In this document: positions 12,611 to 19,040 of the stretch, piece by piece | Layout: every line of letters begins with the position of its first letter | How positions within the stretch are numbered: position 1 is the first letter of the stretch | Source: an uncultured Sulfurovum sp. | GTDB taxonomy: Bacteria > Campylobacterota > Campylobacteria > Campylobacterales > Sulfurovaceae | Length of the DNA: 64,000 bases | Assembly: GCA_913055205.1 (NCBI GenBank) | Contig: CAJXJN010000006.1 | Location: 18,974 to 82,973, forward strand | Reading direction: 5' to 3' | Made by a program: the position numbers and the translations under genes | The notes under the pieces: generated by a model | Told to the model about the DNA's origin: nothing | Databases searched by the model: none | Seen by the model: the letters and a program-made list of their open reading frames with translations, nothing else

Positions 12611-12717
12611 AGATTTATCAACACCCCTTCCAATCTATTTAAACCTCATTGATCCGCATATAAGTCTATACACTTTTTTACACACCTTAAATATAGTTAC
12701 AACCCCTTTTAAAAAAC

Positions 12718-12762
12718 AATTTAAGATTAAAGCAGATGATCCATCTGCTTTAATCTTAAATT
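12718..12762. repeat. Perfect 21-bp inverted repeat with 3-nt centre
   Basis: AATTTAAGATTAAAGCAGATG atc CATCTGCTTTAATCTTAAATT. Confidence 0.95.
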
Positions 12763-12817
12763 ATAAAATTTTCTCATAATTTCTCAACCATAAGTCAATT
12801 TAATATAAAACATATGA

Positions 12818-12823
12818 TATAAT
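12818..12823 (+). promoter_or_regulatory. Sigma70-like -10 box upstream of the riboswitch
   Basis: TATAAT in catatgaTATAATaaagg, placing a likely TSS near 12830. Confidence 0.6.
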
Positions 12824-12830
12824 AAAGGAA

Positions 12831-12930
12831 AATATCTACATGCCACACCCGTTGCGAAGCGGGCTCGGAAAGCCATGGGTCTCTGATACTTTCACCCGGA
12901 AGTAGATGATGAGATTGCCAGGTTGCCTAT
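12831..12930 (+). ncRNA. GEMM-I-like cyclic-di-GMP riboswitch
   Basis: GCCACACC; CCCGTT-GCGA-AGCGGG GNRA-capped stem; CGGAAAGCCATGGGTCTC; TACTTTC/GGAAGTA stem; GATTGCCAGGTTGCC. Matches the GEMM-I core layout. Confidence 0.8.
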
Positions 12931-12957
12931 ATAAATCAATTTTAAAAAGGTATACCC

Positions 12958-15117
12958 ATGAATGTGCGAATCATTATTTCAATCATTTTATTTATAGGCA
13001 ATTTTGTATGTGCTGCGCCCATTGCTGAGTATCGTATGGATGAATGCTACTGGAATGGGAGTACCGGTGAAATCAGTGATAACAGCGGTAACAGTTACAA
13101 CGGAACTGCAGTTGATGCGACAACACTCTCTTCAGATGCTATGATTAATAATAGCGGCAATCTGCGTGGGGTAACCAATATGGTTGAGATTGATAAAAAT
13201 GTGTTGGATGGGCTGAATGATTTTACGGTAATGGCATGGTTTAAAGCACCTGTGGATGGGTATCAAACGATTTTGTCAGCTTCCGATACGGCAGGAACTC
13301 TGCCCTATGCCAATGAGGCATTGCTCTGGTTTCAGGATGCGACCACTGTTGAAGTTTGGATCAAAGGGGAGAGAAGCAGTGGCATGACGGTTCCGGATAT
13401 CAGCAGTGGATGGCATCAGATCGTTTGGACACGTTCCGGTCTAGATAATTGTGTCTATATCGATCCAAGTTCAGCCAGTGCGACACCGGTATGTACTACA
13501 CTTTCTGATGCTGCAAATGGAGCATTGAGTGTTGCTCAGGATGGCTTAAAGCTGGGTGTCGACCAGGACAGTATTAATGGCGATTTTGATCAATATCTTG
13601 ATGGTCTGCTGGATGAAGTAAAGATTTTTAATACCGTTTTGAGTACGGCAGAGATTGCAGATATCTACAATAATGAACTCAGTGGTAAAAATTATGATGG
13701 CACAGTACGGGCAGCAGTAAGTTGCAACACGTACCCGGTACTTGATTATCGGATGGATGAATGTTACTGGTTTGATAACACAGGCGGTATTACTGAAGAT
13801 GTAAAAGATTCCGGACCTTATAAGTATAATGCAACGTCATATAATAGTGCTCAAATTGATCAAATGAATAGTAAGGTCGGTTTTTCCGGAAGTTTTGACG
13901 GTACGTCTTCATATCTGGAAGCAAAAGACAGCCCTTTGCTTAACTTTAAAGATAAAATGACCATATCAATGTGGGTTTATCCGAGAAATGATAGAGATAC
14001 GCATCAAATATATATAGAAAAGTATTATAGCAGTACCACTCGATCAGAAGGATGGATGGTGTGGAATTATGATGATGGAGGGAGCAGTGAATATATTGTT
14101 TTTTCTCTTAATATAGATGGTGATTTTTATAATACATATATCTCGAAACCTTCATCTTGGGAAGGGAGTTGGCATTATATCGCTGCAACATATGATAATG
14201 GGACAATATCACTTTATATTGACAGTGACAGTCCTGTAGCTACAAAAAGTATTACAGGCGATATCGTGAATTCAACAGAGCCATTGAGATTAGGCCAACT
14301 ATATGATTATTGGTTCGATGGGCTATTGGATGAGGTTAAAATCTACAGTACAGATTTAAATGATAGTGATATTTCAGATATCAGAATGAATGAAGATAAT
14401 GGAAAAAATTATGATGGTAGGACAAGAGAGGATATCGTCTGCGGTGCTGTAATTAATGAACATACATGGGAGTTGGTCGGAATTCCTGCTGAGCTCCGGA
14501 CGAATACGGAAACGGTAAGCAGTGTGTTCAGTGATGATATGCTCGGAACATATGGAACTGACTGGATCGTGTATCGTCGTGATTACAGTGAGAGCAACAA
14601 TAGCAGTTGGGACACACAGTTGAGTGAAACCGATGTCCTGGAGTTTGGTAAAGGCTATTGGCTGGGTAGCAGAAACAGTGAGAGTTGGAATGTAAATGAT
14701 ATTGCAAGTGTTGATTATAACTCAAGCAATAATGCATGTACATCCAATCGCTGTGTAGAAGTTGATCTTAAAAGTGTTTCATTGGATGGAGAGAGCGGAG
14801 ACGATCTTCTCGGAACGGGAGCCCATCGTTACAATATGACAGGATTTACGGGTAAGGTAGCTGTGGATTGGGCAGATTGCCGGTTTATTATCGATGGAAC
14901 AGCATATACTCCGTCTGCGGCATATGAAGCCGGATATGTTGAAAAACAGATATGGCAATACAATCCGGGAGACGGCAGTGCAGATGCAAACGGACATACG
15001 ACATGTGATGATACCACACCGGGTGGATGTAAGCTTGAGCCATATAAAGGTTTCTGGATCAAATTGCATGGTCTGACCAAAAATAAAACAGTTAAACTGT
15101 TGATCCCTCAGGAGTAA
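12958..15117 (+). CDS. Secreted protein with two LamG-like domains
   Basis: Signal peptide; duplicated module YRMDECYW...DGLLDEVKIF/Y...NYDG; C-terminal GKGYWL-type domain. Confidence 0.85.
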   Translation: MNVRIIISIILFIGNFVCAAPIAEYRMDECYWNGSTGEISDNSGNSYNGTAVDATTLSSDAMINNSGNLRGVTNMVEIDKNVLDGLNDFTVMAWFKAPVDGYQTILSASDTAGTLPYANEALLWFQDATTVEVWIKGERSSGMTVPDISSGWHQIVWTRSGLDNCVYIDPSSASATPVCTTLSDAANGALSVAQDGLKLGVDQDSINGDFDQYLDGLLDEVKIFNTVLSTAEIADIYNNELSGKNYDGTVRAAVSCNTYPVLDYRMDECYWFDNTGGITEDVKDSGPYKYNATSYNSAQIDQMNSKVGFSGSFDGTSSYLEAKDSPLLNFKDKMTISMWVYPRNDRDTHQIYIEKYYSSTTRSEGWMVWNYDDGGSSEYIVFSLNIDGDFYNTYISKPSSWEGSWHYIAATYDNGTISLYIDSDSPVATKSITGDIVNSTEPLRLGQLYDYWFDGLLDEVKIYSTDLNDSDISDIRMNEDNGKNYDGRTREDIVCGAVINEHTWELVGIPAELRTNTETVSSVFSDDMLGTYGTDWIVYRRDYSESNNSSWDTQLSETDVLEFGKGYWLGSRNSESWNVNDIASVDYNSSNNACTSNRCVEVDLKSVSLDGESGDDLLGTGAHRYNMTGFTGKVAVDWADCRFIIDGTAYTPSAAYEAGYVEKQIWQYNPGDGSADANGHTTCDDTTPGGCKLEPYKGFWIKLHGLTKNKTVKLLIPQE

Positions 15118-15120
15118 CAG

Positions 15121-15915
15121 ATGAAAAAAAATATATGGATTTCTATAATATTGGTATTGGTATTGGTATTGGGATTGGCAGGATGTGACTCCAGTACTCA
15201 ATCTGTGAACGAAGAGAATAGTTTGACACTGAAATCTGTGACTGTAGAGACAAAGCCGTCAAACTGGTATATCCGATTGGTAGCTGAAGATCCTGCCAGA
15301 GCAATGAAAACAGGCAGTACACAGTTGGGAGAGCTGGATACGGATGATAATGTCTCTAAACATACGCTGGAATCGCTTAGTCCATTCGGTGGGACTTATT
15401 TGGATGTGGTTTTTGTTGATCCGGAAGGTGTGGTACCCGGAGAGTATAAAACAAGTTTCCATAAGTATCAGGAAAACAGTGAAGACAGCTGGATGTTTAC
15501 AGTCAAGACTGATGATAGCAATGCAATGATAGAGTTGACATGGCGTGGATTATATATATTGGATCCTTATGTAGATACTGAAAATCGTACACGCTATCAT
15601 GAATATCGATCAATGAGCAACCCTTTGCTTAAACATATGAAGTTGGTCGATACTGCAAATGGTAAAGAGATACCAGCTATTGTTAATGGTAAAGCACAAG
15701 TATATGCTTTCACAATGGAGGGAGTAAGTGAGAGGACCTTTAAATGGATTTTGCAAACTGAAGAGGTTAATATTACTAATATAGAAGATATCTCAATGAT
15801 CGCACAGGATAAAGTGATACAAAAAGATGCTTTGGCAGATCAAAATAGGATGATAGAAAATAAAATAGAATTGTTTGATTTAAACAAGCCTCCAACGAGT
15901 AAAGGGAGAGAATAA
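15121..15915 (+). CDS. Hypothetical lipoprotein
   Basis: Lipobox LAGC after h-region LVLVLVLG encoded by a hexanucleotide repeat. Confidence 0.75.
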   Translation: MKKNIWISIILVLVLVLGLAGCDSSTQSVNEENSLTLKSVTVETKPSNWYIRLVAEDPARAMKTGSTQLGELDTDDNVSKHTLESLSPFGGTYLDVVFVDPEGVVPGEYKTSFHKYQENSEDSWMFTVKTDDSNAMIELTWRGLYILDPYVDTENRTRYHEYRSMSNPLLKHMKLVDTANGKEIPAIVNGKAQVYAFTMEGVSERTFKWILQTEEVNITNIEDISMIAQDKVIQKDALADQNRMIENKIELFDLNKPPTSKGRE

Positions 15916-16121
15916 TGGGGGAGAATAAAAAGCAGAAAAAATCAACATTATCTAGAAAAGAAAAAAGACCAGATAAAAGTTGTCGACGTGCTTTTTTAAA
16001 GAAAGCTGTTTACTCTGCACCAGCCTTAGTTGTTTTAGGACAATTGGCTAAACCTTCCCGTGCATATGCCGATGGTTCTACAGGTCCGTCAGGACCTCCT
16101 AGTGATGGATGGAATGTTTGA
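15915..16121 (+). CDS. 68-aa twin-arginine signal micro-protein
   Basis: CRRAFLKKAVYSAPALVVLGQLAKPSRAYA followed by short tail DGSTGPSGPPSDGWNV; start overlaps preceding stop. Confidence 0.75.
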   Translation: MGENKKQKKSTLSRKEKRPDKSCRRAFLKKAVYSAPALVVLGQLAKPSRAYADGSTGPSGPPSDGWNV

Positions 16122-16165: not shown

Positions 16166-17048
16166 ATGATAGTTTTTAACCGTCATATTATTTTCCAAAA
16201 TGAAGAGATATTGCAGAATGATATCTCGTATGATGTTGTAGAAACAATTAATGTTGTGAAAAAAAAGGATTTTTCTCTTCAAAAGAAATTTTTGTTGATA
16301 AGTGACTGGTATCCTATGTCTGGCCGGAAAATGAGATACTATAGCAGTAGTCCTTTTGAACAGGCAGATAAAAGTCTTTCATGGGCTTTGGAGATCAAAG
16401 ATGTCATGATATTGATCTGGGATGCTGACCACCGAAATATTTTATATGTCAAAAAAAAAGATTATACTTCTCAAAGACTATATTTTTGGATACTTCATAC
16501 ATTTTTCCCCCTTGTATTGGAACTTGAGCGAACATATCATCTCCTTCATGTAGGTTCAGTTGAAGTAGCTGGTAAAGCAGTACTTTTTTCAGCTTTTTCT
16601 TATGGTGGAAAATCAACTTTAACGGACTATTTTATACAAAACGGCCATGCTATGCTTACAGATTTCTATAGCAATAGAGAGACAAGGAGATACCTACTAT
16701 GCGATCTCTTCTTATCCTTTTCATCGACCCTACAGGGAAACAGAAACACTTGGTTATCCTGTAGCAAATTTTGCAACAGAACCTAAACCGATCCATGCTG
16801 TCTATCTTCTTGAAAAAAGTGAACCTAATGCTGCTGTAGAGATCATAGAGCTCAAAGGCATAGAGAAGTTCAAAGCCTTTCATTATAGCAGTTTTATTGA
16901 TTTCTCTTTTATGAAGCAGGAACGATTTGGTTTTTTCATGGAGACGGCAAAGCACGTTCCTGTCTATAAGATCATTATCCCCTGGGATGTAGAACGTTTA
17001 AATGAAGTGTATGATAGCATTTGCCAGCATAGCAAGGAAATTGAGTGA
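16166..17048 (+). pseudogene. HPr-kinase-like (lasso/RiPP-type) kinase, frameshifted
   Basis: ORF 16166..16786 has a P-loop-like AFSYGGKSTL; homologous continuation (IAIERQGDTYYAISSYPFHRPYRE) lies in another frame (ORF 16647..17048); break near 16660. Confidence 0.7.
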
Positions 17049-17946
17049 GTGGGATCTTTGGAGTTTTTAATCGAAATACTAAGCGAGTCAATAAAGATAC
17101 GATTAATATTATGCTTGATGCCATGTCATATTGGGAGTCGGATGATCACGGTATCTGGATAAACGGGACTGTTGCATTTGGACATACAATGCTTTGGAAC
17201 ACTCCAGAATCAAAATATGAACACCTGCCATTAGAGAAAAATGCGTATGTGTTAACTATGGATGCAAGAATCGATAACCGCGATGAACTTGCAAAAGAGC
17301 TCGTATTGCCTGATCTTCCATTGGAAAAAATAGGAGATAGTGAATTTATCTTATCTGCATATAGAAAATGGGGAGAGGATTGTCCTAAGTATCTACTTGG
17401 GGATTTTGCATTTGCGATCTGGGACGGAAATAAAAGGCAGTTGTTTTGTGCTAGAGATCATGTAGGCATAAAGCAGTGGCCAACTATATTATCAATTCTG
17501 AGCTAAGAAGTCCGACGCTTACTTTTTTTGAAAACATTGAGAAACTACCGCCTGCAACTACACTCATCATTACCGGTAAGCAGATCCGTAAGAGTTGTTG
17601 CTGGATGCTCTCACTTCCGGAGGAGTATCGTTACTCCATGGGTAATCCACGATACTTTCACGGTGAAGCAATGAAAGATCTCTTGCCGGAAGAGGTACTG
17701 AATCGCAGAGATAAAGCAGAATTAAGTATACTTATTTTACAGCAGATTGAAGCATTAAATAGAGATGCTTTATGGAGAGATCCTGCCATTGTAAAGATGG
17801 GTATTGTAGACAGAAAGATCATTGAGTATTACGAAGCCAAGTTTCAGAACAGAAAACTTCGTGGTTACGATCTGCAACGCTACTGGCGTATTATCAATCT
17901 GGAATATTGGTACCAATATTCCAGTTTTCTAGACAAACCTGAGTAG
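17045..17946 (+). pseudogene. Asparagine-synthetase-like protein, frameshifted and internally deleted
   Basis: N-terminal GATase-like domain MSGIFGVFNRN...GDFAFAIWDG...ARDHVGIK; frame change at about 17480-17506; then NYIINSELRSPTLTFFENIEKLPPATTLIIT joined directly to C-terminal LSLPEEYRY..LLPEEVLNRRDKAELS, with no SGGxDS synthetase core. Confidence 0.85.
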
Positions 17947-18287: not shown

Positions 18288-19040
18288 ATGAATCAAATCT
18301 TACGTATTATCGTTTCAGCTCTAATATTTATGTCTGTACTCCATGCCACAGATATGATGGTTGATAAAGCCAAATTGCAAGAATTAACAAAATACAATAA
18401 AGTACTTCAGAACCCAAAACTTAAAATTATTACTGCTATAGAAGAACCGACACAGTATATTTTAAAACTGGAAGGAAAATCTCGAAGAGGATCGCAACTG
18501 CTTACCGGTTTTTTAAACAAGCAAACCGGAGAGTTTCATTTAGGTACAGGGTATAAAAAAGATGGTACTCCTATCGTTTTTCCAAAAGATGCCAAAGTCA
18601 TAAAAGAGGGTGTAGCATTCAGTTATGGACAAGGAGAAAAAGAGATTTATCTTGTAACCGACCCCGAGTGCCCTTACTGCAAAAAGTTTGAAAAAGCAAC
18701 GATGGGAAAACTTCAAGATTACCGTGTGCATGTTATACTGTTTCCTTTAAGTTTTCATAAGAAATCTCCGGCAATGATAGAGTGGATCATGCAGGGGAAA
18801 GATGATGTCGAAAAAACAGAAAGACTACAAAATGTCATGCTGGGGAAGAGCAAAGAGTATAAAGAACTGTTAAGTAAGGGTAAAAATCCTTTTCCTTACA
18901 GTCCTAAAGTCAAAGCCTACATGATACAAATGCAAAAAGCGGTTTCTGAATTGGGTGTAAGAGGAACCCCATCACTATATGATGAAGCATTTAACCCTCT
19001 CTCAAAAAAGGACTTGCTAAAATCTTTGAAAAGAACATAA
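18288..19040 (+). CDS. DsbC/G-like thioredoxin-fold protein
   Basis: Signal peptide; DPECPYCKKF active site; GVRGTPSLY cis-Pro loop. Confidence 0.85.
   Translation: MNQILRIIVSALIFMSVLHATDMMVDKAKLQELTKYNKVLQNPKLKIITAIEEPTQYILKLEGKSRRGSQLLTGFLNKQTGEFHLGTGYKKDGTPIVFPKDAKVIKEGVAFSYGQGEKEIYLVTDPECPYCKKFEKATMGKLQDYRVHVILFPLSFHKKSPAMIEWIMQGKDDVEKTERLQNVMLGKSKEYKELLSKGKNPFPYSPKVKAYMIQMQKAVSELGVRGTPSLYDEAFNPLSKKDLLKSLKRT

Follow-up and report, generated by a model that had tools for sequence, protein, structure and literature searches.

Class I c-di-GMP riboswitches (GEMM-I, RF01051) and their cGAMP-sensing counterparts are the closest described systems for the leader RNA considered here. In the pilM relative, an alternative fold captures the cytosine that contacts the ligand, and GEMM-I-type switches of both signs, ON and OFF, exist (PMC9262584). 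Binding of cGAMP to class I has been studied with the G20A form (PMC6274999). As for peptide biosynthesis, lasso leaders carry the motif YxxPxLxxxGxxxxxT (PMC6856326), and a study of RiPP clusters in which an HprK-like kinase phosphorylates the precursor reports that the recognition domain requires YxxP for binding and that only about one third of the clusters surveyed have canonical lasso enzymes (PMC13381572). In the papers searched, c-di-GMP riboswitches were linked neither to Sulfurovum nor to lasso peptides, and no link to Epsilonproteobacteria of hydrothermal sites turned up. In the present work, a 64 kb stretch of DNA (the window) from a deep-sea Sulfurovum-type bacterium was analysed, in which a GEMM-I switch, recognised by its covariance-model score, fronts a surface-protein operon (Table 1).

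By using cmscan (Infernal, Rfam 15), RF01051 was the sole RNA family at gathering threshold in the window, matching over the full model length (1-87) with 48.1 bits (E 2.5e-6) against a gathering score of 35 bits. The initial annotation had proposed a GEMM-I aptamer from the letters and named a covariance search as its check; the score is significant, and the observation is therefore confirmed. The motifs quoted in it are all present: GCCACACC at 12842-12849, the CCCGUU-GCGA-AGCGGG stem-loop at 12848-12863, whose hairpin is capped by the GNRA tetraloop GCGA (12854-12857), CGGAAAGCCAUGGGUCUC beginning at 12866, the arms of a further hairpin (UACUUUC, 12887-12893, and GGAAGUA, 12898-12904), and GAUUGCCAGGUUGCC spanning 12913-12927.

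To describe the group, a model was trained on 13 aptamers, the window copy included, and an alignment was made of 70 matches, drawn from the genus and from two further families of its order. RNAalifold, applied to the 13 aptamers, recovered the GEMM-I architecture independently, with 10 doubly changed pairs. Across the 66 distinct aptamer rows, pairing is kept in 97.9% of cells and double changes occur in 15 of the 20 pairs, counts that are biased towards the GEMM-I structure because the alignment was fitted to it; neither value was equalled in any of 500 shuffles, and in slid-alignment controls pairing falls to 29-52%. The window aptamer, itself one of the 13 training sequences, reaches 89.7 bits with the group model, which is among the better scores. 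Judged by score and covariation, the RNA is a GEMM-I aptamer and an ordinary member of a known riboswitch class.

Table 1. Features of the riboswitch-headed operon, in window coordinates.
Feature	Position	Strand	Basis
Extended -10 element TGATATAAT	12815..12823	+	read directly
GEMM-I aptamer	12832..12930	+	cmscan RF01051, alignment, covariation
GCCU at the 3' end of the aptamer, with the ligand-contact C; predicted to be the anti-Shine-Dalgarno strand	12925..12928	+	partition-function folding
Shine-Dalgarno AGGU of the LamG gene, expression platform	12948..12951	+	sequence and folding
LamG-domain exported protein, 719 aa	12958..15117	+	Pfam PF13385 (Laminin_G_3), E 1.3e-36
Lipoprotein, 264 aa, lipobox LAGC; conserved partner gene	15121..15915	+	sequence and relatives
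Tat-signal micro-protein, 68 aa, leader motif YSAPALVVLGQLAKPS; candidate RiPP precursor	15915..16121	+	alignment of 19 homologues
HprK-related kinase, in two overlapping frames because of a frame shift	16166..17048	+	weak NCBIfam TIGR04352 match
Decayed lasso-peptide isopeptide cyclase; two pieces, N- and C-terminal	17045..17946	+	NF033535
Terminator-like hairpin closing the cyclase remnant	17899..17924	+	sequence
DsbG-like gene, before PqqD	18288-19040		
PqqD/lasso B1-type leader-binding protein, 92 aa	19052..19330	+	PF05402, E 1.6e-17; NF033536, E 5.9e-18

Positions within the aptamer, read from the Rfam alignment and the group alignment, follow Vc2 numbering fitted to the Rfam structure line. 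The equivalents of the ligand-contact bases G20, A47 and C92 are G at 12842, A at 12869 and C at 12926. All three are kept, as they are in the aligned aptamers of the group (G20 and A47 in 70/70 each, C92 in 69/70), and because of this c-di-GMP is predicted as the ligand rather than cGAMP. The retention of G20 had earlier been read as favouring c-di-GMP, a reading that holds and to which the previously unmentioned A47 and C92 are now added.

The pair 21-46 (12843/12868) is C-G instead of the consensus G-C, with pairing kept. Its description as a compensatory change was correct, whereas its treatment as notable for this copy was not: C-G stands at 21-46 in 70/70 aligned aptamers, and when 298 Campylobacterota genomes were scanned with a strict pattern, its swapped form gave 34 matches in 18 of them, against 1 match for its form with canonical G21-C46. 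These counts rule out a peculiarity of the window copy. By them the swap is the Campylobacterota norm, and it has no bearing on ligand choice here; it could, moreover, serve as a natural experiment on the tolerance of the binding pocket. The adjacent pair 22-45 varies among the 70 aptamers (C-G in 60, U-A in 9, U-G in 1). The sole strict canonical core in the 298 genomes, at L106 (G247:C98:19299-19331), was perhaps acquired from outside.

That the aptamer might be a cGAMP-sensing variant of GEMM-I could be suggested by the architecture, which cGAMP switches share, and by the inversion, relative to the Rfam consensus, of a pair that adjoins the pocket. This is nevertheless highly improbable, considering that the window has no A at position 20, that G20 is kept in every one of the 70 relatives, that the inversion is phylum-wide, and that the genome holds many GGDEF/EAL genes; cGAMP specificity was rejected on the presence of G20. 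Assignment to the variant family RF03167 (c-di-GMP-I-GGC) was likewise rejected, given a window score of 51.7 bits, below the cut-off of 59, and the A47 found in the window and all 70 relatives. Some other copies reach 60-66 bits with RF03167, and these matches in the genus look like general similarity, because the variant consensus has G47, which is absent from the group.

The window genome, a 1.66 Mb draft, has five GEMM-I aptamers above threshold, and 34 of the 36 other genomes of the genus carry from 1 to 21 each, often in tandem. Turnover of c-di-GMP is to be expected in the window genome, where GGDEF has nine matches and EAL six. At locus L002 of the same genome (G000:C25:2438-4304), an open frame with both domains directly follows the aptamer at C25:4229-4304, likely a c-di-GMP feedback loop. 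A simple rule assigned a lipobox or hydrophobic N-terminus to 35 of 49 first genes downstream of group aptamers.

The surroundings of the aptamer agree with its having a promoter of its own. The TATAAT that had been reported just upstream is at 12818-12823, within an extended -10 context, and TGTATAAT also precedes the aptamer in the relatives L054 and L055. No good -35 was seen at this promoter, which a consensus promoter scan does not list; transcription is predicted to start near 12830. Between ribA and the promoter there is a hairpin with a 20-bp stem (12717-12763), likely a terminator that insulates the operon. The LamG start codon, also correctly placed just downstream in the initial annotation, is the ATG at 12958, 27 nt past the aptamer. 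No terminator was found between aptamer and ATG, for which reason transcription attenuation was rejected, and a crude scan of the group's leaders gave one distant terminator-like site only. Occlusion of the start codon by pairing of CAUGGGU (12874-12880) with ACCCAUG was discarded, since the forced fold lies 3.7 kcal/mol above the best fold; on inspection, this pairing is weakly preserved in L055.

The reading favoured here, with a probability of roughly 0.55, is that GEMM-I, from its own promoter, would control translation of the surface-protein operon as an ON switch. Without c-di-GMP, the leader would refold so that GCCU, with the C92 equivalent in it, base-pairs to AGGU, the Shine-Dalgarno sequence. 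With c-di-GMP occupying the C92 equivalent, the aptamer would hold, the Shine-Dalgarno would be freed, and ribosomes could start. In partition-function folding, the AGGU-GCCU pairing has a probability of 0.97-0.98 in the free leader, where pair 21-46 is mostly lost (0.11), and drops to 0.03 when the aptamer is enforced with its contact bases engaged. The Shine-Dalgarno is unpaired with a probability of 0.02 in the free leader versus 0.22 in the aptamer-formed one, in which it is still mostly paired elsewhere. The pairing between Shine-Dalgarno and aptamer tail falls from 1.00 to 0.12 in L066 and from 0.59 to 0.00 in L055b; the trend appears in L066, L055b, L009, L002 and L024, not everywhere, and over 22 leaders the accessibility of the Shine-Dalgarno upon aptamer formation becomes greater in 7 and smaller in 3. 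Since 24 of 400 shuffled platforms equal the observed pairing, it is to be taken as suggestive only.

The remaining pairing of the Shine-Dalgarno in the aptamer-formed model is also where a different use of the same c-di-GMP aptamer has its footing, either as an OFF switch or as a control of transcript stability. There, pairing is possible between the 5' AUAUCU and the AGGUAU that spans the Shine-Dalgarno, so that ligand binding would close the aptamer, by its 5' end, onto this region and lower translation, a behaviour compatible with the two signs known for GEMM-I-type switches (PMC9262584). It is considered unlikely, as the free state is the one predicted to sequester the Shine-Dalgarno more.

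The operon served by the predicted ON switch begins with three genes that are 3 nt apart or overlap. The LamG protein comprises LamG regions and a conserved C-terminal domain of ~220 aa (14440-15114), which is 43-91% identical in 15 relatives even where the N-terminal part differs. This domain has no Pfam family, and its AlphaFold model, of fair confidence (pLDDT 78.7), matched no solved structure at E <= 0.001, so that naming it was abandoned. The lipoprotein has 18 relatives, all in Campylobacterota MAGs. An adhesin-like protein, a lipoprotein and a Tat micro-protein had been named as the regulated genes, which is right as far as this trio goes and overlooks the HprK-like kinase, the lasso cyclase and the PqqD protein of the same conserved cluster. 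In relatives, kinase homologues are intact (290-300 aa), and cyclase homologues measure 625-634 aa in L066 and L055. The cyclase pieces in the window cover positions 1-145 (E 1.1e-62) and 559-667 (E 3.1e-11) of NF033535, with the middle missing. The stretch 16166-17946, with its split kinase and middle-less cyclase, has the appearance of a decaying RiPP branch; the single frame shift could be an assembly error. The transcript likely ends at the terminator-like hairpin of the cyclase remnant. The PqqD gene is part of the conserved cluster, although it stands behind the DsbG-like gene here.

The broken kinase and cyclase genes would fit an aptamer that is itself a relict, its structure inherited and its regulation lost as the operon decays in this genome. 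This is quite improbable, for the aptamer core, promoter, Shine-Dalgarno and first three genes are intact, and the group-model score given above, from a training sequence, is among the better ones.

The order LamG, lipoprotein, micro-protein, kinase and PqqD recurs in relatives, usually at the same chromosomal place, and intact versions range as far as the complete lasso set of L055, where an ABC exporter, a B2 protein (NF033537, 90.8 bits), a further kinase and a cyclase of intact length are also encoded. Because relatives keep this order and L055 more of the enzymes, the surface-protein operon belongs to a RiPP-like cluster, the enzyme branch of which is decayed in the window genome. Protein search led to named relatives among the metagenome assemblies of Campylobacterota, Sulfurovum included, one of them from Lamellibrachia satsuma. 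Among the 16 loci that are informative, that is, with upstream sequence, GEMM-I heads the operon in six (window, L054, L055, L056, L064 and L066), with a tandem pair in L055, and is absent from ten (L070, L075, L076, L077, L079, L080, L081, L082, L084 and L085), some of which share contigs with L057-L065; these ten speak against the favoured reading. On the lipoprotein tree, 4 changes in riboswitch presence are needed, at least 2 of them forced, and one origin is not given. A tandem GEMM-I also occurs in a related cluster (L060, 14522-14689), before genes for an exported protein of 473 aa and a lasso-cyclase-like product, not LamG.

The invariant residues of the micro-protein among 19 homologues are R24, R25, F27, Y33, P36, G42 and P47, and a relative's copy matches TAT_signal_seq. 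The micro-protein contains YxxPxLxxxG, the motif by which PqqD-type domains bind leaders, and YSAPALVVLGQLAKPS fits the longer YxxPxLxxxGxxxxxT with S for T, the T being present in several homologues. In the 19-homologue alignment the tails are short and Pro/Gly rich and show no conserved ring acid (the Asp/Glu at ring position 7-9 of a lasso core); for this reason they are not called lasso cores, and a classic lasso core in the tail was set aside. When the lasso set was looked for in the window, only PqqD was intact, cyclase C was decayed, and the B2 protein was not seen; PqqD/B1, B2 and cyclase C are all present in L055. The micro-protein would be the substrate of the cluster's PqqD and HprK-type enzymes, and in intact relatives c-di-GMP would therefore activate the production of two surface proteins along with that of an exported, modified peptide. 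The micro-protein may instead be a plain Tat signal that carries the leader motif by chance. Extended to Sulfurovum-type bacteria at large, the proposal that c-di-GMP, through GEMM-I, directly switches on a RiPP-like surface system (a Tat-exported, PqqD/HprK-modified peptide, a LamG surface protein and a lipoprotein) is put forward tentatively.

The riboswitch itself is ordinary, and what appears noteworthy is its link to a RiPP-like surface system. Campylobacterota gain a well-supported c-di-GMP riboswitch, with close relatives that hold up to 21 copies, mostly before genes for exported-looking proteins, and the locus supplies a concrete case in which c-di-GMP would control a RiPP-like gene cluster, an unusual target for this messenger.

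In comparison with the described GEMM-I aptamers (RF01051; Vc2, Cd1), the window RNA is alike in its architecture, GNRA loop, G20, A47, C92 and significant score, and differs from Vc2 and Cd1 in the C-G at 21-46, shared with nearly all Campylobacterota copies found, in an extended P3 hairpin and in a translational-type platform. With the pilM cGAMP riboswitch of Geobacter (PMC9262584) it would share an alternative fold that captures the ligand-contact C and an ON sign, both predicted on the window side; pilM senses cGAMP and acts through a terminator, whereas the window leader has no terminator and keeps G20. Paeninodin-type lasso clusters with a kinase (PMC5067487) and LPP RiPPs (PMC13381572) have in common with the intact relative PqqD/B1, an HprK-like kinase, an ABC exporter, a cyclase and B2, together with the leader motif YxxPxL. 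Unlike them, the present precursor has a Tat signal, a short Pro/Gly-rich tail and no conserved ring Asp/Glu, and the cluster is linked to a LamG protein and a lipoprotein and headed by a riboswitch in six loci. The HprK-like-kinase RiPPs of PMC13381572 are the closest parallel to the minimal form of the cluster in the window.
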